Shown: one piece after another, positions 3,212 to 19,230 of the stretch
Layout: every line of letters starts with the position of its first letter
Numbering within the stretch: the stretch's first letter is position 1
Source of the DNA: Bdellovibrionales bacterium
GTDB lineage: Bacteria; Bdellovibrionota; Bdellovibrionia; Bdellovibrionales; UBA1609
Reading direction: 5' to 3'
NCBI GenBank assembly: GCA_020850475.1
Contig: JADZEO010000059.1
Coordinates: forward strand, 1-64,000
Length of the DNA: 64,000 nt
Translations under genes and position numbers: made by a program
The notes under the pieces: generated by a model
Told to the model about the DNA's origin: nothing
What the model saw: only the letters and a program-made list of their open reading frames with translations
Databases searched by the model: none

Positions 3212-3375
3212 AGTGACCACCGACGGATAACTGTCTCAGGGTACTTCTGAAGCATCTCAGCACGAGCCGTGTTGATTTGCTCCTGCACGCGGGCTGATGC
3301 CGCAGCCGATCCACGCATATTTAAGAGAACCCTTTGAGCAGCCATCCTGATGCGAGTTATGATCTTGCGGATCAC
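3208..3375 (-). CDS. small ORF, 55 aa (GTG start)
   Basis: MIRKIITRIRMAAQRVLLNMRGSAAASARVQEQINTARAEMLQKYPETVIRRWSL; GTGA overlap with the preceding zinc-ribbon ORF. Confidence 0.45.
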   Translation of the reverse strand: MIRKIITRIRMAAQRVLLNMRGSAAASARVQEQINTARAEMLQKYPETVIRRWSL

Positions 3376-3590
3376 GCGGCACCTTCCAGCGATGGCTCAG
3401 ATTCTTCGCTTTCTTCTTTTGTGGTTTTGTCGCCGAGATTTTCTGCCCATGTTGGGATGGGGAGATCATCAGGAGACATCGGTCGCTCTAGTAGATCGGG
3501 GCTGTAGTTACAGCTCACGCAGTGAGCGTGAGTTCTTAGAACTTCATAGCTGCGATCATTGCAGCGTGGGCATTTTCGCCAGTAGGTCAT
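3372..3590 (-). CDS. zinc-ribbon-like small protein
   Basis: CPRC-x14-CVSC motif; ATG at 3590 has a strong SD (AAGGAGAAAGCTATG). Confidence 0.55.
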   Translation of the reverse strand: MTYWRKCPRCNDRSYEVLRTHAHCVSCNYSPDLLERPMSPDDLPIPTWAENLGDKTTKEESEESEPSLEGAA

Positions 3591-3739
3591 AGCTTTCTCC
3601 TTTGCTGGTGGAGGGATGGTTTTCAGCCCTCTCACCAATTAAAATTGCAAGCTGTGCCAACTTTGGTGCGAAAATGAGCTAACGCTCGAACATCAAAAAG
3701 GAATCGGTGGAAATCGCGGAATTTTTCTGGGTCAGAAAC

Positions 3740-3956
3740 CTTCAGATAATTTGAATGAAAATGCGCGAGCACAAATTTAGAGGCTCTACGCGTATTCAAA
3801 AAATTTGAAGAACATCAAGAATCTTGAATATGAATTTTCTACACGAACCATTCAAGAAATTTGAATATCTCGAAGAAAACAGAAACCGTTTAATCTTCAA
3901 TAACTTAACGTGTATTAAGCGATGCCGTCTCCTCCTAGTATTCAAATAAATTGAAG
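3740..3956. promoter_or_regulatory. cluster of four 17-bp dyads, candidate upstream activating sites
   Basis: CTTCAGATAATTTGAAT (3740-3756), ATTCAAAAAATTTGAAG (3794-3810), ATTCAAGAAATTTGAAT (3850-3866), ATTCAAATAAATTGAAG (3940-3956); all share a 6-N5-6 layout. Confidence 0.65.
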
Positions 3957-4060: not shown

Positions 4061-4076
4061 TGGCATCGGCTTTGCT
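4061..4076 (+). promoter_or_regulatory. sigma54 (-24/-12) promoter of the YcaO operon
   Basis: TGGCATCGGCTTTGCT; exact GG-N10-GC spacing against the consensus TGGCACG-N4-TTGCW; about 27 nt from the downstream edge to the ATG at 4103. Confidence 0.7.
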
Positions 4077-4102
4077 CTCTTCGAGTGTATAGGGGGCCAA
4101 GC

Positions 4103-5077
4103 ATGGTGAGCGATCTAGCTCAAGACAACCAAAGACTACGAAGAAGGGGTTTTGAAACCTCGCCGCTATTATTCGGTCCAAAAATCACCAGCGAAAACGA
4201 AATCAAACGGCCAGAGGGTTACGCACTCCCTGGATTTGTGGCCCTTTCCATAACGGCGGAAGCGGACGGATTCACAGCCACTGGCTACGGCGAAGGCCCG
4301 CATGATCTTGCCCGTGCAAAGGCGATTTCCGAGGCGTTTGAGCGGCTGGCTCTTTTCAAATTTTGTACTGACACCAATAAATCAGAGACAAGTAGTGGAT
4401 GGGCGGCCCATTGTACCGCCGAGCTTGCAGTCCGTGCGGCGGTGTTTGAACTGATCGAACGCGATGTTGCTCTAACGGTTTGGGAAAACGGCGGTCCTTT
4501 TTATGTGGTGCCTGAATCACTTTGGCCGAAGCCCCTCCTTATATGGAAGAGTGAGCGGCACGCCAGCCTTGAATTTTCTTATCTTCGTATTCTTCTCAGT
4601 AGTACCGACAACGGCGCGTGTGTATCTGCGCTCCTCTTTAGTGACAGTGGGAATTTCGTCGCGGGCCATGCTTCGGCGTTTGAACTAGAGGATGCAATCA
4701 TCTCCGCCGCAAATGAATGCTTCCGTGCCGCCCACTCAGCAATCCAGTTTGATTCTATCGCCGAGGTTGCCGCTCTCCATTCTGAAAACCAAGGTGTGAG
4801 TGCAAGCCCTGCGGCTCATTCGCTGGCGTATGCCTACAAAGAGACGATGCCAGAAGTGGTGAAGATTCTGACTGCAACAGAGATTGAAGTGCGCCGTAAG
4901 TGGCAGAAACACCAGACATTATTTAATGAGTTGAATCTTGCTGCGTTCGACGCACAGACTTTTCAAGTCGGCGACCGAATCGTGGCAAGAGTGAAAAGCC
5001 CCAAGTATCGAGAAATTTTCTGGGGCCGAACTGACGATGTGTCTAAACAAAACCAACACCCGCATTTTGTGGGTTAA
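4103..5077 (+). CDS. YcaO-like protein
   Basis: Motifs GYGEGPHDLARAKAISEAFERLAL and AELAVRAAVFELIERDVALTVWENG match YcaO-type EAxER / ExIERD signatures. Start moved from 4058 to 4103 because of the SD AGGGGG (4091-) and the sigma54 promoter. Confidence 0.72.
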   Translation: MVSDLAQDNQRLRRRGFETSPLLFGPKITSENEIKRPEGYALPGFVALSITAEADGFTATGYGEGPHDLARAKAISEAFERLALFKFCTDTNKSETSSGWAAHCTAELAVRAAVFELIERDVALTVWENGGPFYVVPESLWPKPLLIWKSERHASLEFSYLRILLSSTDNGACVSALLFSDSGNFVAGHASAFELEDAIISAANECFRAAHSAIQFDSIAEVAALHSENQGVSASPAAHSLAYAYKETMPEVVKILTATEIEVRRKWQKHQTLFNELNLAAFDAQTFQVGDRIVARVKSPKYREIFWGRTDDVSKQNQHPHFVG

Positions 5078-5088
5078 AGGAGGGATAT

Positions 5089-5385
5089 ATGCGTAACAGA
5101 GCAATCAAAGGAGTCTTATTCACGCTTGCAAGTGTAACAGGTCTTTTTGCGTTTGCTGGGGAGCTACCGCAGGGCTTGCACTTGATCGAAGAACTTCCAC
5201 TCGAACAGAGGGTTGTGGCTCACAAGCAAGTCTTGAAATTTCTGAATGAGAATCCCCAATTTGCCGCACTCGTGAAAGTGATCGCGGTCGATGAAAAAGG
5301 AACGGTCTATGTCTTGGATGAGAAAATGGAAAACATCGTTGCCGCTGGTGCCCCTAGCTCTATTGGGATGTCTGCTGGCAAGTAG
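5089..5385 (+). CDS. small secreted protein, candidate YcaO-associated peptide
   Basis: 98 aa with Sec-type signal (IKGVLFTLASVTGLFAFAG), SD AAGGAGG, C-terminus AAGAPSSIGMSAGK; 11 nt downstream of the YcaO gene. Confidence 0.6.
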   Translation: MRNRAIKGVLFTLASVTGLFAFAGELPQGLHLIEELPLEQRVVAHKQVLKFLNENPQFAALVKVIAVDEKGTVYVLDEKMENIVAAGAPSSIGMSAGK

Positions 5386-6811
5386 CCATCTGGCATTTGC
5401 CGCCTCGGAGGGATCAGTGCATACGAAAAGCGTAAGAACCTACATGAATTTTGCCAAAGAGGTCGATCCAGCCCACATCCTGTCGATGGCTGATCTCGAA
5501 CTCTCTATTGCCCTTTCTACTCCGCTCGTCGTGTTCAATAACGAGCGTCAGGTTGTTTCGGGCTTGGCCGAGACATGGACGATTCTTCCGCCTGATCGAG
5601 TATCGTTCACGCTTCGTAAAAATCTACGCTGGTCAGATGGCTCACAAGTCAAAGCTGCGGAATATAAGACGGCATTGGAGCGAGCTAAACGTCTCTATGG
5701 AAACGATCTCAAAGCATTGTTTGAAGCCGTCACGAAAATCGAGGCCCCTGATGAGCGCACACTGATTTTTGTAACCAAGGGCGCGGCAACAGAGAGCGGA
5801 CTTCTGCTCAAGCTGACTGAACCCATGTATGGACTTCTGGCCCTGAAGGGTGACGTCCTTAATCTTTCAAAGACAGTCGGGCCGTTTTTTGTGAAAGAAA
5901 ATCGTGGCGACTCGCTGACGTTGGAAGCAAATAAGAACTGGTATGCCTACACAAGCGCGATGCCCACACTTGTTGAAATCAAACGCCCGAAAGATGGCGT
6001 TGATTTGATGACCACCTTCGATAAAGACGACTGGCCGAATCTGACCTCTGGCAGCTCTCTCATGTCGAAAGAAACCCTCGATCAACTAAAGAGCAAAGGC
6101 TTCAAAACTTGGCAACGCAGTCTCGACAAGGTTTATAGCCTCTATCCATCAAAACGATTTCTAAAAAACGACGGAGCAAATTTCATAAAGTTGCTTTCAA
6201 AGAAGGTGGACAGCTCATCTCTATTGGGTGGACTCACTGGATTCACCAATGCTGAACAATTTTTTCCGCGAGGCTATGAGCTTTATTCCAGTCAGCAGCC
6301 GAAGGTTCCCACTGTCGATAAGTGGCGCGGCAAAGGCCCGATCACAGTTCTACTACTCGACACGACAGTTCTTGCGGGAATGCGCGAGAACTTGGCGAAG
6401 GTTATCTCTGCGGCATCGGGACAACCAGCTAAAATCGAAGTCATCTCTGTTTCTAAAGCGGGGGATCGCATGAAACTCGGCGACTTCGATATTTTCGGCG
6501 TGCAGATTGCCGTCGCTGATCCAAATTTTGAAGGCGCAATGTCTTTCTTTATAGAGCGAGAGCCGCCGTTCATTCCATCGGGCGATGGTGCGGCGGATTT
6601 TGCTGCACAACTTCGCGCTGCTCGCGGATTGCCAACGTCAGCGGATCGCGCCGCCCGCATGAGAGAAATCATCATTCGCGCTCAAGAGGCGGGTCACGTT
6701 CTGCCGCTTTTCCATTTTTCTAGCCTTGCCATTGCAAAGCCAGGCGTTGACCTGTCGGAAGTTCCAAACTCGGACGAGACGATTTTATTTTCTAAGGTGA
6801 GAATGCGATGA
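5309..6811 (+). CDS. ABC-type peptide solute-binding protein (SBP family 5, DppA/OppA-like)
   Basis: Signal peptide LPLVPLALLGCLLASSHLAFA; SBP_bac_5-like PLVVFNNERQVVSGLAETWTILPPDRVSFTLRKNLRWSDGSQVKAAE. ATG 5309 has AAGGA 6 nt upstream; overlaps the preceding ORF by 77 nt. Confidence 0.75.
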   Translation: MSWMRKWKTSLPLVPLALLGCLLASSHLAFAASEGSVHTKSVRTYMNFAKEVDPAHILSMADLELSIALSTPLVVFNNERQVVSGLAETWTILPPDRVSFTLRKNLRWSDGSQVKAAEYKTALERAKRLYGNDLKALFEAVTKIEAPDERTLIFVTKGAATESGLLLKLTEPMYGLLALKGDVLNLSKTVGPFFVKENRGDSLTLEANKNWYAYTSAMPTLVEIKRPKDGVDLMTTFDKDDWPNLTSGSSLMSKETLDQLKSKGFKTWQRSLDKVYSLYPSKRFLKNDGANFIKLLSKKVDSSSLLGGLTGFTNAEQFFPRGYELYSSQQPKVPTVDKWRGKGPITVLLLDTTVLAGMRENLAKVISAASGQPAKIEVISVSKAGDRMKLGDFDIFGVQIAVADPNFEGAMSFFIEREPPFIPSGDGAADFAAQLRAARGLPTSADRAARMREIIIRAQEAGHVLPLFHFSSLAIAKPGVDLSEVPNSDETILFSKVRMR

Positions 6812-8172
6812 AACCTGAGTCCTTGGAACAAAACGTAAAGCGACAAGCTCTTGCTTGGACAACTGGTGGAATCATCTTCACCCTGTGTCTGACAGGATCG
6901 CTTTCACTTTTCTTGATGTTCCAAGATGCAGCCCGCGAAGTTGAAACTATCTCAGCATCAGCCATCGCGTCGGGACGTACCGAGATTCTTTCTGGCGATG
7001 TCCGCGCTACCGAGCTTCGCTTTAGAAAAAATCTTGGCCTCAAACCAAACGACCGACTTTTATTTCTCGATCAGAACCGTGCGGCTTGGGTTGGTGATTT
7101 ACGAGAGGAGTCTCTGTCCTCATGTGCGGACCCAACTCCGTGCCGATTGTGGCTCAAGCAGCGAATCGTTTTTGAAAAACCCATTTACTTCGACGATGAA
7201 GGACGGCACCTCTGGGGCTATCTCCACATCGAAAAGGCAGCACAAACAGATTGGCCGCTCGTCCTTGGCGTTGCGCTTGCCGTTATCTTGGGAATGCTTA
7301 TCCAAGGATTCGGTGCATATAGGAACACAATGAAGTCCATTCGGAAAGTTAGCTCGACACTGACGGCTTGGGCAAAAAAGATTTCCGAAAATCCAAAGGA
7401 TCAATCTGAATATCGCAAAGTGCCTTTCTCTGAGATTGCGCCCGTCGGGAATGCACTCCTCGGCATGAAGGATTATGTCATTGCACTCGAAGCGCGAGCC
7501 CGCGAGCAAGGGGCACTTGTCACACTTCGTGGAATCGGGCACGACATCCTAAATCCTGTGGCCCGCATGAAACGCCTGTTAGGTTTACTTGAGGCTCAGA
7601 GCAGTGCCGATCCTGAAACACTCGCAAACATTCGCGCCAACCTTAAACGCCTATCAAGCTATGCCGAGCAGTTGAAGCTCATTTACAAGCGGCAACTTGG
7701 CGAAGTCACTGACACCGCCTCAACGTCTGATGTCGCCAAAGAAGTGCGCGAGTTGGCTTCGGAATTATTAACCGACTCTGAAGTCATTGAAAAACGCATC
7801 CGATTTCAAGTCGATGCGGAATCGTCGTGCATAAGTCCGATTCCTGCGCCAGCTTTGAGTCGCCTTATCGAAAATCTATGTAACAACAGCATCCACGCAA
7901 GCCCTGAAGGAGCAACGCTATCACTAAAAGTAGAACCGAAGGGGGACCGCGTTTCAATTCTTGTTCACGACGAGGGCGACGGGATTCCTCCAGAACTTCA
8001 ATCTCGAATATTTGAGGCCGACTTCACTACCAAAGGAAACAAGGGCACTGGCCTTGGTCTCTTTGTGGTGAAACAGGTCTGCGAACAATACGGCGGGAAG
8101 ATCGCTATTTCATCCAGCAAGAGCGGCACTGCGTTCACTTTGGATTTCCCACGCGTGGAGGTAAGCCCATGA
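6808..8172 (+). CDS. membrane sensor histidine kinase
   Basis: Two N-terminal TM segments around a short periplasmic region, H-box GIGHDILNPVARMKRLLGLLE, HATPase_c motifs (NSIHASPEG, DEGDGIPPE, GTGLGLFVVKQ); ATGA overlap with upstream gene. Confidence 0.9.
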   Translation: MKPESLEQNVKRQALAWTTGGIIFTLCLTGSLSLFLMFQDAAREVETISASAIASGRTEILSGDVRATELRFRKNLGLKPNDRLLFLDQNRAAWVGDLREESLSSCADPTPCRLWLKQRIVFEKPIYFDDEGRHLWGYLHIEKAAQTDWPLVLGVALAVILGMLIQGFGAYRNTMKSIRKVSSTLTAWAKKISENPKDQSEYRKVPFSEIAPVGNALLGMKDYVIALEARAREQGALVTLRGIGHDILNPVARMKRLLGLLEAQSSADPETLANIRANLKRLSSYAEQLKLIYKRQLGEVTDTASTSDVAKEVRELASELLTDSEVIEKRIRFQVDAESSCISPIPAPALSRLIENLCNNSIHASPEGATLSLKVEPKGDRVSILVHDEGDGIPPELQSRIFEADFTTKGNKGTGLGLFVVKQVCEQYGGKIAISSSKSGTAFTLDFPRVEVSP

Positions 8173-9542
8173 GCTACCGCATCCTCCTAGTGGACGACGA
8201 CAGAGAGAACTTGATGGCGAACGAATCCCTGCTAAGAGCGAAGGGCTATCAAGTCAAAACTGTGCAGTCGGGTCAAGAGGCCATAGACACCATCAAAGCG
8301 GCCAAGAAAGACTATGCGCTCATCTTGATGGATTACCACATGGTCGGAATGTCGGGCGCGGAAGCGGTAGCCGAGATCATAAAGATCAAGCCAAACCAAC
8401 AAATGTTAGCCTATTCGCTCGACGACAACCGCGATGTAATGCGCGAGACGTTCAAAGCTGGCGTGCTGGATTTTCTCGACAAGAACTCCGAAAACGAAGT
8501 GCTGCTTTCAACTGTTGCCGCCTACTGTGAAAAGTACGAGCAGAATTTCCGTCTGCTTGATGACGACAACCTTACCCACAGCGAGAAGGAAGACTTCATC
8601 AAGAAGATTGGAATGATCGGTCGCTCAGAAAAACTCTATGAGCTGGCCCGCCAGGTCGAGAAGATTGCACCATCAAAAGCAACGACACTAATTTACGGAG
8701 AGAGCGGCACAGGCAAAGAACTTGTGGCTCGTGCGCTTCATAAATGCGGCGACCGATCTAGCGGTCCCTTTATTGCGGTTAACATTGCAGCGGAGCAAGC
8801 ATCACTTCTCGACTCTTCTTTGTTCGGCCATAAAAAGGGTTCTTTCACTGGAGCCACGCACGATCAAGCTGGGAAATTCCAGCTTGCCAATCGAGGAACA
8901 ATTTTCCTCGACGAGATCGGCGACATGAGTCTTGATCTTCAAGTAAAGCTCCTGCGTGTCTTGCAAGAGCGTGAGATCACGCCAGTCGGGGCGACGCGCC
9001 CGATTTCGGTTGACGTGCGAATTGTTGCGGCCACTCACCGCGATTTACCCAAGCTCATCGCCGAGGGAAAGTTCCGCGAAGACCTTTACTACAGATTGAG
9101 TTCTGTGATTTTGGAAACCACGCCACTTCGCGCTCGACCCGACGATATAGAGCCGCTTGTTATTCACTTCACACGAGAAATTTGCAAAGAAAACGGCTTT
9201 GACCGTTCATTCCATCGCCGCTGTCTTGAGGTGCTGCGTGAATATTCTTGGAAGGGCAATGTGCGCGAACTTCGCTCGGTCGTTGAGCGACACTTGATCG
9301 GCGCGGACAGCGAGATCGTGCGGGCTGAAGACCTCGAAGCTCTTTTGTATCAAAAAAGAGAAACCGAAAATCCAAGAACACTCGAAGAAATCGATCGCTA
9401 CCTTCACGAACAGAAGCGGCGGATGATGGCTGATGTGCTTAAGGACTCCAGCTCCAAAGCAGAAGCCGCGCGCCGACTCGACATTGCCCCAAACAGACTC
9501 CACTACTTCGCTGAAAAGTACGGGCTCGATCGGAAATCCTAA
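8169..9542 (+). CDS. NtrC-family sigma54-dependent response regulator
   Basis: Receiver ALILMDYHMVGMSG, Walker A GESGTGKE, GSFTGAT loop, IFLDEIGDM, C-terminal Fis-type HTH (EAARRLDIAPNRLHYFAEKYGL). Confidence 0.93.
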   Translation: MSYRILLVDDDRENLMANESLLRAKGYQVKTVQSGQEAIDTIKAAKKDYALILMDYHMVGMSGAEAVAEIIKIKPNQQMLAYSLDDNRDVMRETFKAGVLDFLDKNSENEVLLSTVAAYCEKYEQNFRLLDDDNLTHSEKEDFIKKIGMIGRSEKLYELARQVEKIAPSKATTLIYGESGTGKELVARALHKCGDRSSGPFIAVNIAAEQASLLDSSLFGHKKGSFTGATHDQAGKFQLANRGTIFLDEIGDMSLDLQVKLLRVLQEREITPVGATRPISVDVRIVAATHRDLPKLIAEGKFREDLYYRLSSVILETTPLRARPDDIEPLVIHFTREICKENGFDRSFHRRCLEVLREYSWKGNVRELRSVVERHLIGADSEIVRAEDLEALLYQKRETENPRTLEEIDRYLHEQKRRMMADVLKDSSSKAEAARRLDIAPNRLHYFAEKYGLDRKS

Positions 9543-9625
9543 GCATACAAGAAAGTCCTACAACTAGCCCTTGGCACATCAAGTCATTGCTCTATGGATA
9601 TGATTTCGCGTGTGGTCTTTACTTG

Positions 9626-9642
9626 TCTGTGATTGTCACAGA
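9626..9642. promoter_or_regulatory. perfect inverted repeat TCTGTGA-TTG-TCACAGA, candidate operator
   Basis: 7-bp arms, 3-bp spacer, 40 bp upstream of the HTH gene that heads the defence operon. Confidence 0.45.
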
Positions 9643-9682
9643 TAATTTTTGAGCCGGACAATCACCCATATTGGAGAAGCGA

Positions 9683-9901
9683 ATGCAGGCAATTGAGCCC
9701 TGGTACTCAGTTGAGGAAATTGCTCGTCACTTAGGCGTTTCAAAGGAAACGATCTATCGCTGGCTAGAGCGTCGAACTATTCCTGCGCATCGCATGGGGA
9801 AGCTCTGGAAATTTAAGCCTAGCGAAGTGGACGCGTGGGTACAAAATGGTGGCGCTGCCGACGATCGCACGCACCGCAATCCACCGGAAAGCAGCGTGTG
9901 A
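9683..9901 (+). CDS. excisionase/MerR-like helix-turn-helix protein
   Basis: WYSVEEIARHLGVSKETIYRWLERRTIPAHRMGKLWKFKPSEVDAWV, HTH_17-type; ATG 9683 with SD GGAGAAG (track start 9671 is TTG). Confidence 0.8.
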   Translation: MQAIEPWYSVEEIARHLGVSKETIYRWLERRTIPAHRMGKLWKFKPSEVDAWVQNGGAADDRTHRNPPESSV

Positions 9902-9905
9902 TCTA

Positions 9906-12900
9906 ATGATAAAACTCGAAGACCTAAAACAATCACTTTATGTGCGCGGACTAGAGGGCAACGAAGTCGTCCAGATTAAAAGTATCGAGAAAGTCAGCGA
10001 AGATGCAGTGACGGTTCTCTATAAAAATGCCCAGGGGCAATTCCGCGAACAGATGGTTCACAGGGCTGACGAAGCTCGAATGGAGCTGGTCGACAATAGC
10101 TCCCGCCCTTGGAGTTTTCAGGCAGAGGGCGCAGAGTTTCGTTTGGGCCTTGAAGCCCAGCGCATTCGGCTAGCACACCTTTTTGATCCAATGATGGCGG
10201 TTCACAGCTCGAACGTAGAGCCGCTTCCTCATCAAATTACTGCTGTATATGAAGCCATGCTGCCAAGGCAGCCGCTTCGTTTCGTTCTTGCTGACGATCC
10301 TGGCGCTGGCAAAACGATTATGGCCGGACTTTTCATTAAAGAACTCATTATGCGTGCAGATGCCAAGCGCATTTTGATCGTAACACCAGGCTCGCTGTCT
10401 GAGCAGTGGCAGGAAGAGCTATACGAAAAATTCGGACTCCGTTTCGATCTGTTCAGCAGAGAGAAGATGGAACAGTCCGTTCGCGGCAATTATTTTGAAG
10501 AACAAGACTATTTGATCTGCCGTCTCGATCAGCTTTCGCGGAACGAGGATTTTTTATCCAAACTCCAAGCGACAGAGTGGGATCTGGTAATTGTCGATGA
10601 GGCCCACAAGATGTCAGCCAGCTTTACGGGCGGAGAGGTTAAGCGCACTGACCGGTACGCTTTAGGCGAGTTATTGGGAAAAATCACCCGTCACTTGCTG
10701 TTAATGACCGCTACGCCTCACAACGGTAAAGAAGAAGATTTCCAGCTTTTTCTTTCGTTACTTGATAGTGACCGTTTCTATGGAAAATTTCGCGATGGGG
10801 TTCACAAAGTTGATGTGACGGACATTATGAGGAGAATGGTGAAAGAAGAGCTGCGTCGTTTCGATGGAACAAAGCTCTTCCCTCCGCGTTTTGCTTACAC
10901 CGTAAATTACCCCCTTTCTGTTGGCGAACAAAACCTTTACGACGCAGTAACAACCTACGTTCGAGAGGAAATGGACCGCGCTGACCGACTGGCCGCAGTA
11001 GACAAGCGCCGAGGCGGAACTGTTGGCTTCGCTCTTACGGCTCTTCAGCGACGTTTAGCTTCAAGTCCCGCCGCAATTCACGAATCGCTCAAGCGCCGTC
11101 TAAATCGTCTTCAAACGCGGCTTGAGGAAATGAAGAAGGTTAGCTCAGGCCAACTGCCTAAGGACGCATTGGATAAATATAACCAAACAGTTCCCTCGAA
11201 CTTCGACGATGCTGACGATGAAATGAGTTCGGAGGAATACGAAGAGTTCACCGATGAAGTGATCGACCAAGCCACCGCCGCTCAAACCGTCGAGGAGCTT
11301 CAAAAAGAAATCATTATCTTGAAAGACTTGGAGCAAGAGGCGCGCAAGGTGCGTCTGTCGGGAGAAGACAAGAAGTGGTCTGAGCTTTCTACTTTACTCC
11401 AGGGCAACCCTCACATGAGAGATAAGAATAGCAACTTTCGTAAGCTTCTTATCTTTACGGAGAGCCGGGACACTCTTGAATACCTCGTAGAAAAGATCGC
11501 GGGCGTCTTTGGAAGCCCCGATAAGATCGTGACGATCCACGGGGGCACGAACCGCGACCGACGAAAAGAAGCCCAAGCCCTTTTCCGAAACGACCCGAAT
11601 GTGCATGTAATGATCGCGACCGATGCCGCTGGCGAAGGCGTGAACTTACAAAATGCAAACTTGATGGTGAACTACGATCTTCCCTGGAATCCGAATAGGA
11701 TTGAACAGCGGTTTGGTCGTATTCACCGGATTGGTCAAACTGAGGTATGCCATCTGTGGAACATGGTCGCCAAGGGAACCCGCGAGGGTGATGTGTTTCA
11801 TACACTTTGCGAAAAATTGGAAGTTCAGAGCAAGGCTCTCGGCGGCAGAGTGTTTGACGTTCTCGGCGAAGCCTTTGAGAATATATCGCTCAAGGACTTG
11901 CTGATTCGAGCAATTCGTACCGCTGACAGTGATGCTGTTCGCCGAGAAATTCGGAAGGTTGTGTCTGATAGCCTCGAAACCGAGCGAATCCAGGAACTCT
12001 ATAAGCGCAACGCTTTGGTTGAGCAACACATGAGCCTCGATCAGCTATACAAAGTTAAGGAGGACATGGATCGGGCTGAGGCGCGGAAGCTCCAGCCTTA
12101 CTTCATTCGCTCGTTCTTCGATGAGGCTTTCAAAGCACTCGGCGGCGACATTCGCGCGCGGGAGACTGGTCGATGGGAAATCGCGCATGTTCCGCCTGTC
12201 GTGATCGAACGAGCCAAACAACTTCTCGGCTCTAGACATCCCGTGACTAGAACCTATCAACGAGTTTGTTTTGAAAAGAACGTAGTGCCGATCGAAGATC
12301 GGCCCAAAGTCGATCTCATTCACCCCGGCCACCCTCTGATGGCTGCTGTCACGGACATTATTCTGGAGAGGAATCGCGCAAAACTCCGCGAAGGAGCGAT
12401 CCTTGTCGATCCAGCAGATGAGTCTACTGAGCCTCGCGTGGTTTTCATGCTGGAACATTCGATCAAGGAAAGTTCTGGAGAACAGAAAGTCGTTTCTCAG
12501 GCTTTACAGTTTGTTTCCATCGACAAAAACCTTCAACCCACTAATGCGGGATGGGCTCCGCACATTGACCTTCGCTCGATCAAGGACGAAGAACGTGCGC
12601 TCGTGACTGACGTGATAAACGCTCCTTGGTTGAAGACCGAGCTAGAAACAAAAGCAATGGCCTATGCTTCGCAAGAAATGGCGCCTCATCACTTTAGGGA
12701 AACCAAAGAGCGACGCGAAACCTTTGCAGACAAAGTGAAGGAGGCGGTTCACGAGCGGCTTACAAAGGAAATTTCCTATTGGGAAGATCGCTACATCAAA
12801 CTTAAAGAGCAACAAAGCGAAGGTAAGCAACCGCGAATGCAGCCCGAAAATGCTCGTCGTAAGGCCGAAGAACTCAACGCTCGGCTGGAGCAGCGGAAAA

Positions 12901-13436
12901 AAGAAATCGCCACGATGAGAAACGTAATTTCATCGACACCTAATGTGATCGGTGGCGCGCTTATTATTCCGGCTGGCCTTCTTGCTCAGAAGGCTGGTGA
13001 TACCACGTTTACAATAGACGCAGAAGCACGCAAGCGGATTGAAAGAGTCGCTATGAATGCAGTGATGGACGTGGAGCGATCTTTCGGCCATCACGTCTTC
13101 GATGTTTCTGCGGACAAGTGCGGCTGGGATGTTACGGCGCGAATTCCTGCGAAGGGCGAAAATCTTTTCGATGATCGGCATATCGAAGTAAAGGGCCGCG
13201 CCAAGGGGCAAGAGACTATCACAGTCACAGCCAACGAGATCATGTACGCTTTGAACCAACGTGAGAAGTTCATCCTGGCGATTGTGATTGTAGACGGTGA
13301 AAAATTCGAGGGGCCGTTCTACGTCAAAAATCCCTTCAAGAGCCCGCCAGATTTTCAAAGTGAGAGCAGAAATGTTCCGCTCAAAGAATTACTTAAGATG
13401 GCAGTAAAGCCCGAGCAGACAGTGGTGAGTCAATGA
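9906..13436 (+). CDS. SNF2-type helicase with C-terminal DUF3883-like domain
   Basis: [67 protein letters not shown]-terminal [29 protein letters not shown] resembles DUF3883. Confidence 0.88.
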
Positions 13437-16390
13437 GTATTCGCATTCGATCTCCCAAGAAGCTTATAGAAGTGGCTTTACCACTAGATGCTATCAATGC
13501 TGCCTGCGCACACGAGAAGCAACCAGGAATAGGCGCTCATCCAAGAGGGCTTCATTTATGGTGGGCTCGCCGGCCCTTGCCCGCATCACGTGCAGTTCTG
13601 TTTTCCCAACTGGTAAATGATCCTGGATACCAGCAAGGTGAGGGCTTTAAGTTTGGAGTTAGTAAGGCAAAGGCGGCAGAAGCCCGAGAGCGCCTTTTCA
13701 AAATTATTGAAGATCTTGTGCTGTGGGAGAATACAAACAATGAATCCGTTTTGTCTCAAGCACAGAAGGAAATTGAAAAATCATGGAAAGAAACCTGCGA
13801 GCTTAATCGTGACCATCCTCAGGCTGAAGAACTTTTTAATCCAAATGTTTTGCCAGCCTTTCATGACCCATTTTCTGGTGGCGGCGCAATACCATTAGAG
13901 GCGCAGCGCCTGGGATTAAAGAGCTACGCTTCAGACCTTAACCCAGTTGCTGTAACCATCAATAAGGCCATGATTGAAATTCCGCCTGTCTTCTCGGATC
14001 GTCGTCCGGTTGGAAAAGTTCGCCCGGATGATAAACAAATTGAGATGAATAGAGAATGGAAAGGAGCGAGTGGACTGGCGGAGGACGTAAGGAGATACGG
14101 CTATTGGGTGTGGAATGAGGCCCAGAAGCTTATCGGCCATTTGTATCCACAGGTGGAGGTAACGTCGGTATTGGCAAGCAATCGAAACGATTTGGAACCA
14201 TTGATCGGCAACAAACTAAATGTAATTGGCTGGGTGTGGGCTCGAACCGTGAAGAGTCCCAGTCCCGCATATTCGCACGTCGATGTACCTCTTGTTTCAA
14301 ATTTCATTCTATCAAGTAAGGCCGGTAAGGAAGCCTATGTAGAACCAGTCAAAAACAGTGATGGGTATAGTTTTATTGTAAAGACCGGTTCAATCCCCGC
14401 CGGGGCAAATGTCGGAACAACCGCAGGAAAAAGAGCTGCGTTTATTTGCCTAATGTCTGGCTCCCCGATTGACTATGATTACATTCGCTCCGAAGGAAAA
14501 GCCGGGAGAATGGGTCAAAGGTTGATGGCGATTATCGCAGAGGGCAAGAGAGGGAAAATTTATCTCTCACCAACGCAAGAGCAGATTGACATTTCATTAA
14601 GAGCTGTTCCTGCCTGGAAGCCTGAACAGAGATTACCTCACAATCCAAGGGACTTCAAAACACCAAATTATGGACTTACTACTTTTGGCGACCTGTTCAC
14701 TCCACGTCAGTTAGTTGCGATGAATACCTTCTGTGATCTTGTCAAATCAGTTATCAAAAATGTCGAAAAGGATGCGGTTCTCGCAGGTCTTTCAGATGAT
14801 GGAGTCAGTCTTGAGGACGGTGGTTCCGGTGCGAAGGCTTATTCACAGGCAATCGGAGTATATTTGGCTTTTGCGATAGATAGACTGGCTGACTACGGCA
14901 GTTCAATCGCTACATGGAAATCGTCGGGCGAGCAGGTAATGCAGACGTATAAGCGCCAGGCAATTCCCATGACTTGGGACTTTCCCGAATCTAATTTCTT
15001 AGGACAGAAAGCTATCTGTTGGTTGAATGCAGTTGAGTACGCCTCAGAAAACTTAAACTCAACTTGTCCTACTAAAAGAAAAAATGCAGGGGTGGCGATT
15101 CAGGCAGACGCTCAAACACAGCAAGTAAGTCAGGGAAAGGTTATATCCACGGACCCTCCTTACTACGATAATATTGGGTATGCGGATCTTTCGGAGTACT
15201 TCTATGTTTGGCTACGCAGAAGCCTCCATGACGTGTACCCCAAGTTATTCAATGCGCTGACCGTGCCTAAAGATAAAGAATTAGTGGCGACCCCATATCG
15301 ACATGGCGGGAAGACAGAGGCCGAATCGTTCTTCTTAAAGGGAATGAAAGAGGCGATTCAAAATTTAGTTCAGCAGGCCCATCCCGCCTTTCCAGTTACA
15401 ATCTATTACGCCTTTAAGCAAAACGAGACCGAAGATGACAAAGGCACATCCAGTACGGGCTGGGAGACTTTTCTACAGGCGGTGGTTGAGTCTGGTGTGG
15501 CAATAACTGGCACCTGGCCAATGCGCACAGAGTTGAGCAACAGAATGATTGCTTCAGGAACGAATGCGCTCGCGTCCAGCGTTGTCTTGGTTTGCAGGAA
15601 AAGGGCAAGTGATGCGCCAACTGTTGGGCGTAGAGAATTCATCCGTGAACTGAATGCTGTTTTACCAGCAGCACTTGATGAAATGACTCGCGGAGGTGTG
15701 AACTCGCCTATCGCTCCAGTTGATTTATCCCAAGCCATTATTGGTCCGGGAATGGAAGTTTTCACAAAATACTCTGCCGTTCTTGAGGCAGACGGGAAGC
15801 CGATGTCTGTGAAAACGGCCCTTCGACTTATAAACAGATTCTTGGCGGAAGAAGATTTTGATCATGACACGCAGTTTTGTCTCCAGTGGTTTGATCACTA
15901 CGGGTGGTCTTCTGGAAAGTTTGGAGATGCAGATGTGCTGGCGCGGGCGAAGGGCACGTCAGTTGATGGTTTACGAGAAGGCGGCGTTGTCGAAAGTTCG
16001 TCCGGAACACTGAGACTTCTAAAACCGAGTGAACTTTCTATCGCTTGGAGGCCGGAAACAGACTCCAGAGTTTCCATATGGGAGCTGCTACATCAGATGA
16101 TTGCAAGGTTCTATTCTGGTGGAGAAAGCGGCGCCGGTGAATTGCTGGCCAAAGCAAATAGCCACAGTGAAGCAATACGCACACTTGCTTATCGACTGTA
16201 CACGACTTGTGAACGAAAAGGATGGGCACAAGATGCAAGCAGCTACGATGGACTGGTGCGAGCCTGGGACTCCATTGAATCTGCTGCCCGCGCTGTTGGA
16301 TACAGCGGAACTCAAATCCCCTTATTTGATTCGGCATCACCAAGCGAATCTCAAAATCCGATAAACGCTAAATCGAGGAAGAAGAAATGA
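13433..16390 (+). CDS. DUF1156-type DNA methyltransferase, defence-associated
   Basis: N-terminal [40 protein letters not shown], motif [19 protein letters not shown], catalytic [20 protein letters not shown]. Confidence 0.85.
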
Positions 16391-19230
16391 CGTTGAAACC
16401 TTGGCGCGAACTTATCACTCCTCATAAAGACGTATTGGACGGTACGTTTAAGCAAAGTGAATTTGCCGCCGACCTCACCCAAGTACAAACTGGAACGGCT
16501 CCGAGTGAATACAAGGATGCAGAAAAATTCTTTCAGCGCACCTTCATCACTGAAGGAATGCGATTGCTTTTAGACTCAGTCGCTCGACGTATTTCCGGTA
16601 AAGGTGGCGACCCGGTTATTCAGCTTCAGACTTCCTTCGGTGGCGGAAAAACACACACGCTTTTGGCGGTATTTCATCTGGCTCGCCGAGAAGTCAGTCC
16701 CGAAAAAATGAGCGGGATTCCCCCCATCCTTGATGCTGCTGGGATTACCGATCTCCCGAAAGCAAGGATCGCAGTTATTGACGGCAATAATATGTCGCCA
16801 AGCAAACCGCGAAAACGTGGCGCAGCTTCTGTGAATACAATTTGGGGAGAAATCGCGTGGCAACTTCTTGGAGAACCCGGATATAAGATTGTTGCCGAGG
16901 CAGATCGTGATGGCACATCTCCAGGCAAAGAATCTCTTGTAGAACTTCTTAAGAGTTCCGCTCCCTGCGTTGTGTTGATCGACGAGTTGGTTGCATTCAT
17001 CCGTCAGCTCGAATCAGGGAAGTCTTACGTAGGTGGCACGTTCGAGAGCAATTTGAGTTTCGTTCAAGCCCTCACAGAAGCCATGAAGTCGGTGCCCAAC
17101 GCACTACTTCTGGCATCACTGCCTGAATCTGAAATTGAAGTCGCCGGCCCAATGGGCAAGCTCGCTCTCGATTCTCTTGAGAAGTATTTTGCAAGGGTCG
17201 AATCTGTTTGGAAGCCCGTCGCAACTCAAGAGGCGTTCGAGATCGTGAAGCGTCGGCTGTTTGAGGGGACTGGAAACCGAGCCGAAATCGAAAAAGTTTG
17301 TAAGACATTCTTCAACTTCTATATCGAGAACAATACAAAGTTCCCGGCAGAAACTCAGACGAGCCAGTATTTTGATCGACTAATTCAATCTTACCCAATT
17401 CATCCTGAAGTTTTTGATCGTCTTTATGCAGATTGGTCAACGCTTGAGAAGTTTCAGAGAACACGCGGCGTTCTTCAATATTTAGCAATCGTCATTCACC
17501 GGCTCTGGAACTCAGGCGACAGCGATCCTATGGTTATGCCGGGCTCACTTCCCCTCGAAGATGTGAATGTTCGTACTAAGAGCATTCACTACCTACCGCA
17601 AGGATGGGAGCCAGTAATTGAAACAGAAATTGACGGCCCGCGCTCCGCCCCGGCGGAGATTGACGGCAAAGAGGCACGGATGGGATCGATTCGCGCCGCT
17701 CGTAGACTGGCACGAACGCTATTTCTGGGAAGCGCACCTTCAACAAATGCACAAGGCGCACGAGGATTGGCACTGGATCATATTATCCTTGGCGCTGCTA
17801 TTCCCGGTCAGGTGATCGGAGTTTACGAGGACGCTCTTAAACGGCTCCGCGATCAACTTCAATACTTGTTCGGCGACAATAATCGCTTCTGGTTCGACAC
17901 CCGAGCAAATCTCCGCAAAGAGATGGAATCCCGAAAGCTTCGTCTTGAGGGACGGGAACACATCATTCCCTGCATTCGTGAGTTTGTTGCCAGCGATCTG
18001 CGTGGAAATTCTGTATTTGCTGGTGTTCATGTGTTCACGGATTCTGCGGATATTCCTGACGAAGTTGGTCCCGGCCCGCGACTCGTGGTTTTAGCTCCCG
18101 AGCACTCAAGCGCGTATTCTCGTGCGAACGCAACTGTTGCCCAAGATGCTGCCAGCAGAATTCTAGAAAAGCGCGGTGAACAGCCAAGGCAGCGTCGCAA
18201 TCGCATCGTCTTTCTCGCCCCCGATTACGATTCACTCTCTCGTCTGAAAGAAAATGCGAAGACCTACCTGGCATGGGAGTCCATCGTTAAGGATATTAAG
18301 GAAGAGAAACTAAACCTGGATATGCACAATTCTCGGCAGGCAAAACAAGCCTTCGAGCAGTCTGAAAAGGTCTTGTGCCAAAGTGTTCGAGATTCATTCA
18401 AGTGGATTTTGAATCCTTATGAGGAACCCGTGGCTGGTCGCTTCACCTTGAAATGGGAAGCGGCTCAGGTCGCTGCGGGAGGGGCGAACTTTATCATTGC
18501 GATTGAAAACAAAATGCGCGAGGAAGAGTGGATCATCACTGAATGGTCGCCCATCCACCTAACGAACATTTTAAAGCAATGGTATTTCAAGGACGGTCAG
18601 GCCGACGTTATTACCAAGAAAATACTTAATGATTTTGCCAGCTATCTCTACCTTCCAAGGCTCACGTCTGAGGCTGTTCTCAAAAGTGCTATTGCCGAAG
18701 GTGTGATGGCAGAAGATTTCTTCGGTTTTGCGCAAGGAAAGTCCGGCGACCGTTACCTTGGATTAAAAATTGGAACACCTGCCAGCATTTTTATCGACGA
18801 TGCGACTCTTGTTGTGGAGAAAAACGCTGCTCTGAAGCAACGAGAACAAGAGCGAGCCGAGGTTCCGACTTCCTCGACCACCGGTCCAAATTTAACCGCT
18901 CCTTCTACAAGTGGCTATACCGGCGCAACAATGGAGTCACGGTCTGTCGGTGTTCATAGCGCAGGATCGCCGAATTGCTTTACAGCGTCCAAGGAGCTGA
19001 ATGCGAGAACAGCCAAGCTCCACTTCAATGATGTGATCGAGAAAGTGCTTCGTCAACTTACGGAGCGCGTATCTACATCCGTTACTATCTCCATCAACAT
19101 TGAGGCAGTTGATGAGCACGAGTTTGGACAGGATGTGCAGAAAACCATCCTGTCCGCGTGCGAAGAACTTCAATTCAATCGAAGTGAATTTTACAGAAAT
19201 TCGGACATCAAAGGGAGTGACAGCCAATGA
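16387..19230 (+). CDS. DUF499-type ATPase, defence-associated
   Basis: Walker [20 protein letters not shown], Walker [18 protein letters not shown]; follows the DUF1156 gene with ATGA overlap. Confidence 0.82.

Follow-up and report, generated by a model that had tools for sequence, protein, structure and literature searches.

A sigma54 promoter ahead of a YcaO operon in a Bdellovibrionales bacterium, and a possible autoinducing peptide circuit carried by a conjugative element

In a 64,000-nucleotide stretch of Bdellovibrionales DNA (hereafter the window), a short sequence ahead of a YcaO operon resembles a sigma54 promoter, and the last gene of the same operon resembles an activator of sigma54. 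Does the site drive the operon, does the operon thereby control itself, and to what end? The initial annotation had claimed a -24/-12 match with exact GG-N10-GC spacing, and our analysis of motif, genome enrichment and conservation confirms it. The site, TGGCATCGGCTTTGCT, occupies positions 4061-4076 of the plus strand, with GG at 4062-4063 and GC at 4074-4075, exactly ten bases apart. From this spacing we infer a transcription start near 4087, 12 nt past the C of the -12 element, which leaves a leader of 16 nt before the YcaO ATG at 4103. That start codon and the sequence AGGGGG ahead of it (4091-4096) had likewise been named, and both are found as described.

The window by itself is weak proof. 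The pattern TGGCAYN5TTGCW has its only exact match there at 4061-4076; with one mismatch allowed, 6 sites occur against 4.8 expected, and this chance-level count is what would favour a merely fortuitous match to the consensus. The genome-wide motif scan that the initial annotation had proposed, in which the standing of the motif was judged from pattern counts, returned 23 exact matches in the 3.9-Mb host genome, whereas the reversed control gave 2. In 22 of these 23 the last base is T, as it is at 4061-4076. The host genome encodes RpoN (PF04552, E=3.7e-65), and the intergenic region yielded no sigma70-like site at the threshold of the tool used.

Homologous operons were sought in 145 genomes from the class and in 374 from the phylum. 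None of the 16 promoter bases differs in the three close relatives L070-L072, and a comparable site lies upstream of every one of the 17 YcaO-first operons recovered. These operons represent several families, and their YcaO identities fall as low as 24-33%; among ten aligned relatives, identity to the YcaO of the window ranges over 24-89%. A -24/-12 score of at least 9 out of 11 near the YcaO start was reached by 17/17 of these operons against 2.9% of background windows, and a score of at least 10 by 14/17 against 0.29%. When near-identical operons were merged, the figures were 14/14 and 11/14 (binomial p <1e-21). A scan of genome contigs yielded further close relatives only, among which L070 is the contig of L058 and L073 that of G115, each being counted once; a plasmid collection contained no YcaO relative that we could find. 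Conservation in 17/17 operons leads us to reject a chance origin of 4061-4076, to which we now give virtually no credence. Judged by comparative evidence, 4061-4076 is a genuine sigma54 promoter, kept in distant relatives among the predatory bacteria, and with no competing sigma70-like site found, the claim that it reads the YcaO operon is supported.

The promoter accompanies an activator carried by the operon. Such an activator is visible in at least 16 of the 17 YcaO-first operons, the L114 operon ending at a contig edge before the kinase and regulator. In contrast, a second, phylum-wide gene order, peptide - solute-binding protein (SBP) - YcaO - kinase (L074-L081, L119, L120), mostly lacks both regulator and sigma54 site: a -24/-12 site accompanies just 3 of 11 starts of this kind. 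Promoter presence and operon-borne activator are thus associated (Fisher p=1.5e-4). The peptides of the second gene order often carry motifs rich in Cys and Ser, for example GGATCF, GCGSSVGNGCFAN or NCSSSVGGGC.

The window operon comprises five plus-strand genes in the order YcaO, exported peptide, SBP_bac_5, histidine kinase and NtrC-type regulator. The YcaO protein (4103-5077) matches PF02624 with 52.9 bits (cut-off 25.7), which places it above the curated cut-off required of a RiPP cluster enzyme, and its motifs ExxER, ExxERD and ExxR are invariant in 11 homologues. The candidate modified-peptide precursor (5089-5385) is 98 aa long, has a signal-like segment at its N-terminus and carries the C-terminal GAPSSIGMSAGK. 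The third gene (5309-6811) encodes a solute-binding protein of family 5, OppA/PrgZ-like by profile match; it begins within the peptide gene, overlapping it by 77 nt (5309-5385), an arrangement that suggests, from the gene coordinates, possible translational coupling. Two membrane segments (residues 18-39 and 146-171) flank a periplasmic domain of about 106 aa in the sensor histidine kinase (6808-8172). The regulator (8169-9542) consists of a receiver, a sigma54 AAA+ domain with GESGTGKE and GSFTGA, and a C-terminal helix-turn-helix, AEAARRLDIAPNRLHYFAEKYGL, which was identified by eye. GSFTGA is a variant of the GAFTGA loop that also occurs in the regulator homologues. With matches to PF00158 (E=5e-68), PF00072 and AAA_lid_14, the protein has the receiver, Walker A motif, GAFTGA loop, AAA+ lid and helix-turn-helix that define an NtrC-type activator, so that this earlier identification of the last operon gene is borne out. 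A terminator-like hairpin lies past the operon end (9623-9645, plus strand).

If the regulator acts on its own operon, it should have binding sites upstream. Five palindromes of the form TTCAA-N5-TTGAA, with at most one mismatch, precede the promoter and are retained position by position in close relatives; as candidate activator sites they carry no strand. Palindrome 1, TTCAGATAATTTGAA, lies at 3741-3755, palindrome 2, TTCAAAAAATTTGAA, at 3795-3809, palindrome 3, ATCAAGAATCTTGAA, 19 bp from palindrome 2 at 3814-3828, palindrome 4, TTCAAGAAATTTGAA, at 3851-3865, and palindrome 5, TTCAAATAAATTGAA, the nearest to the promoter, at 3941-3955. They thus supply the upstream activator sites expected of a sigma54 promoter at about -100 to -350, although their binding is inferred. 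The exact palindrome occurs only 13 times in the 3.9-Mb genome, three of them within this 160-bp stretch; near the other ten we saw no convincing sigma54 site.

An unbiased palindrome search upstream of the other promoters, in which no sequence was assumed, revealed that in diverged operons the letters differ and the positions mostly match. The palindromes read TTCAG/CTGAA in L063 (five copies) and L065; CACAG/CTGTG in L064; GGACG/CGTCC in L068; and GCGCG/CGCGC in L115 (five) and L116, with a related form in L117. L062, L066 and L067 each have one TTCAG/CTGAA palindrome. The proximal palindrome starts 96-126 bp ahead of the -24 element, and the next usually lies 81-103 bp further up (185 in L114). 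Shuffled sequences never equalled the observed palindrome score for the window, L072, L060, L061, L063, L068, L114 or L115, and did so in 3-43% of shuffles for the weak cases L062, L064, L065, L116 and L117; in L066 and L067 the palindromes were not significant in this test.

Where the palindrome letters shift, the recognition helix of the operon's own activator shifts with them. Operons with TTCAA have DIAPNRLHY, DIEQNLLSY or DISPTNLQY (pattern D-I-x-x-x-x-L-x-Y), those with TTCAG have G[IV]xPxHLQY, the CACAG operon has ITPNHLRH, and the GCGCG operons have [IV]NES[ST]LR. Genomes of this kind usually hold many NtrC-type activators, and in the absence of binding data one of these could drive a real sigma54 promoter while the palindromes served a different regulator. 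We regard this as quite improbable, since the covariation ties the palindromes to the operon's own recognition helix. Nothing else in our data speaks as strongly for binding by the regulator that the operon encodes, and hence for a possible positive loop; the inferred link between promoter and regulator sites is strong. The autoregulatory loop put forward in the initial annotation is therefore supported by comparison (promoter in 17/17 operons, palindromes covarying with the helix), albeit without transcript data. Overlooked there were all five upstream palindromes, the candidate precursor peptide, the SBP and the divergently oriented transfer genes, and together these change the purpose of the loop.

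On the minus strand, divergent to the operon, the first gene (3372-3590) encodes a small zinc-ribbon-like protein (CPRC...C..C) and is followed by type IV secretion genes for a TrbC pilin (2174-2458) and a TraL-like protein (1786-2133). A TrbC pilin gene lies on the opposite strand in the window, L060, L061, L063, L115 and L117, and a TraG-type ATPase is also present on the divergent side where the locus reaches far enough. Facing the transfer genes is a minus-strand -24/-12-like element, TGGCACAGCTTGCA, at 3646-3659, whose function is unproven. A perfect TGGCAY...TTGCA element points toward the transfer genes in four lineages, with spacings of N8 in the window, N9 in L060 (4289-4303, minus), N7 in L061 (3798-3810, minus) and N9 in L063 (8907-8921, plus). 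All four end in TTGCA, not in the genome-typical TTGCT. To our knowledge, GG-N7..9-GC spacing is not tolerated by ordinary sigma54. Since the element at 3646-3659 has GG-N8-GC in place of GG-N10-GC, we do not take it for an ordinary sigma54 promoter. Across the genome, motifs with shortened spacing show just a mild excess (24 vs 8), and we found no explanation for the abnormally short spacing in four lineages.

A distance of 79-82 bp separates the divergent element from the far palindrome in all four of these lineages (82 bp for palindrome 1 in the window). Operons with a divergent element have five palindromes (five to six in L060 and L061, counting weaker copies), and two is the usual number in operons where no transfer genes lie divergently. 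In L115 the divergent site, TGGCATTTATCTTGCT, has the normal N10 spacing and lies 123 bp from the far palindrome; at 4498-10064 this locus combines five GCGCG/CGCGC palindromes with sigma54 sites of normal spacing on each strand, and among the natural loci it offers the cleanest test of shared control. L117 possesses transfer genes, but no divergent element or extra palindromes were detected there. Since palindrome number and divergent element track the divergent transfer genes, shared control of these genes via the palindromes is likely but unproven.

A YcaO 94% identical to that of the window occurs in a genome of another family. This identity across families, together with the flanking transfer genes, makes it most likely that the operon travels on a conjugative element. 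Directly downstream, on the same element, lies a candidate defence system of the Hma type, with an HmaA helicase and an HmaB methylase (9846-16390; PADLOC E=0); 16387-19230 may be a third Hma gene. A small helix-turn-helix protein encoded between these genes and the operon (about 9684-9902) resembles, by eye, DNA-binding domains of the excisionase or MerR type.

What might such an operon sense? Most YcaO-first peptides carry P-[ST]-[CS]-x at the C-terminal end. The window peptide ends in APSSIGMSAGK, others in PSCVSM, PSCIE, PSCWTAPY or PTCWGH, and further homologues in ASCG or GSCE; the L117 homologue has no Cys. Conserved Ser/Thr/Cys in the C-terminal core is what a RiPP precursor should show, and residues at such a fixed place are the expected substrate of a YcaO cyclodehydratase, the modification itself being inferred. 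The operon contains no E1-like partner or RRE protein, and the YcaO scores only 41 bits against the TIGR03604 (SagD) cut-off of 219. The criteria for a TOMM of the SagD type are thus not fulfilled, the chemistry may differ, and whether YcaO forms azoles unaided is uncertain.

YcaO proteins in many clusters produce antibacterial peptides, and the peptide gene is co-transcribed with a putative sensor; with promoter and self-activation both real, the peptide could thus be a bacteriocin-like product, autoinduced as nisin is and not primarily a signal. We find this decidedly unlikely, as the conserved operons have no dedicated ABC exporter or immunity gene and always retain the SBP and kinase instead. 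The kinase and SBP might, alternatively, sense an environmental peptide or metal, with YcaO and the small protein as output or accessory and the promoter merely providing positive autoregulation without cell-cell signalling. SBP_bac_5 proteins bind nickel and food peptides too, and kinases activated by SBPs are known for nutrients (PMC11113362). That reading is unlikely, though not to be dismissed: YcaO, small exported protein, SBP and kinase stay linked phylum-wide even in the second gene order, and no permease is conserved among the operons. The SBP matches oligopeptide-binding proteins of the OppA type, including the pheromone receptor PrgZ, and the simplest reading, although sensing is inferred, is that it presents a self-made peptide to the kinase.

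Our best reading is accordingly that the operon, carried on a conjugative element, forms an autoinducer circuit based on a peptide modified by YcaO. Phosphorylated regulator would bind the palindromes roughly 105-320 bp upstream and remodel sigma54-RNA polymerase at 4061-4076, so that the operon would activate its own transcription. YcaO would most likely modify Ser/Thr/Cys near the C-terminus of the peptide, which would be exported from the cell, captured in the periplasm by the peptide-binding protein and presented to the kinase, closing the autoinducing loop. Where the operon sits on a conjugative element, the palindromes would probably serve the divergent transfer operon as well. We hold this circuit to be rather probable, with modification, export, sensing, activation and transfer control all inferred from sequence.

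Parts of the circuit have precedents. NtrBC, ZraSR and AtoSC share the -24/-12 element, the kinase and AAA+ regulator, and upstream dyad sites with 5-6 bp between the arms; unlike in those systems, the regulator here lies inside the operon predicted as its target, with YcaO, exported peptide and SBP, and there are two sites per promoter, or five when it is divergent to transfer genes. Pheromone-controlled conjugation of pCF10 (PrgZ/cCF10) likewise combines an SBP_bac_5 of the PrgZ kind, a small exported peptide and adjoining conjugation genes, whereas the present system is Gram-negative, has no importer, is predicted to signal through a membrane kinase and sigma54, and probably uses a YcaO-modified peptide. 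In the nisin system (NisRK), as here, a single operon with a positive loop encodes a ribosomal peptide, the enzyme that modifies it and a two-component system; in the present operon YcaO replaces lanthionine enzymes, the regulator is of the sigma54/NtrC kind, and an SBP is present without exporter or immunity genes. In SBP-activated sensor kinases the SBP gene also adjoins the kinase gene (PMC11113362); our operon adds a peptide and its modifying enzyme. We found no published description of a YcaO-peptide-SBP-kinase-regulator module in the open-access full-text literature, which is no proof of novelty, and the main YcaO survey mentions neither Bdellovibrio nor kinases nor SBPs (PMC4603692).

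In conclusion, we raise as a tentative possibility that Gram-negative bacteria across much of the Bdellovibrio phylum have a novel communication system. An exported, YcaO-modified peptide would be captured by a PrgZ/OppA-like protein and sensed by a kinase, and a sigma54 activator would then drive its own operon and, through shared palindromes, the divergent conjugation operon of a mobile element. The natural pairs of palindrome and recognition helix make regulator-site specificity directly testable. If right, the circuit would mean that Gram-negative predators signal by modified peptides, in a system whose promoter and regulator sites are defined and for whose peptide there is a candidate, and possibly that pheromones control gene transfer outside the Gram-positives.
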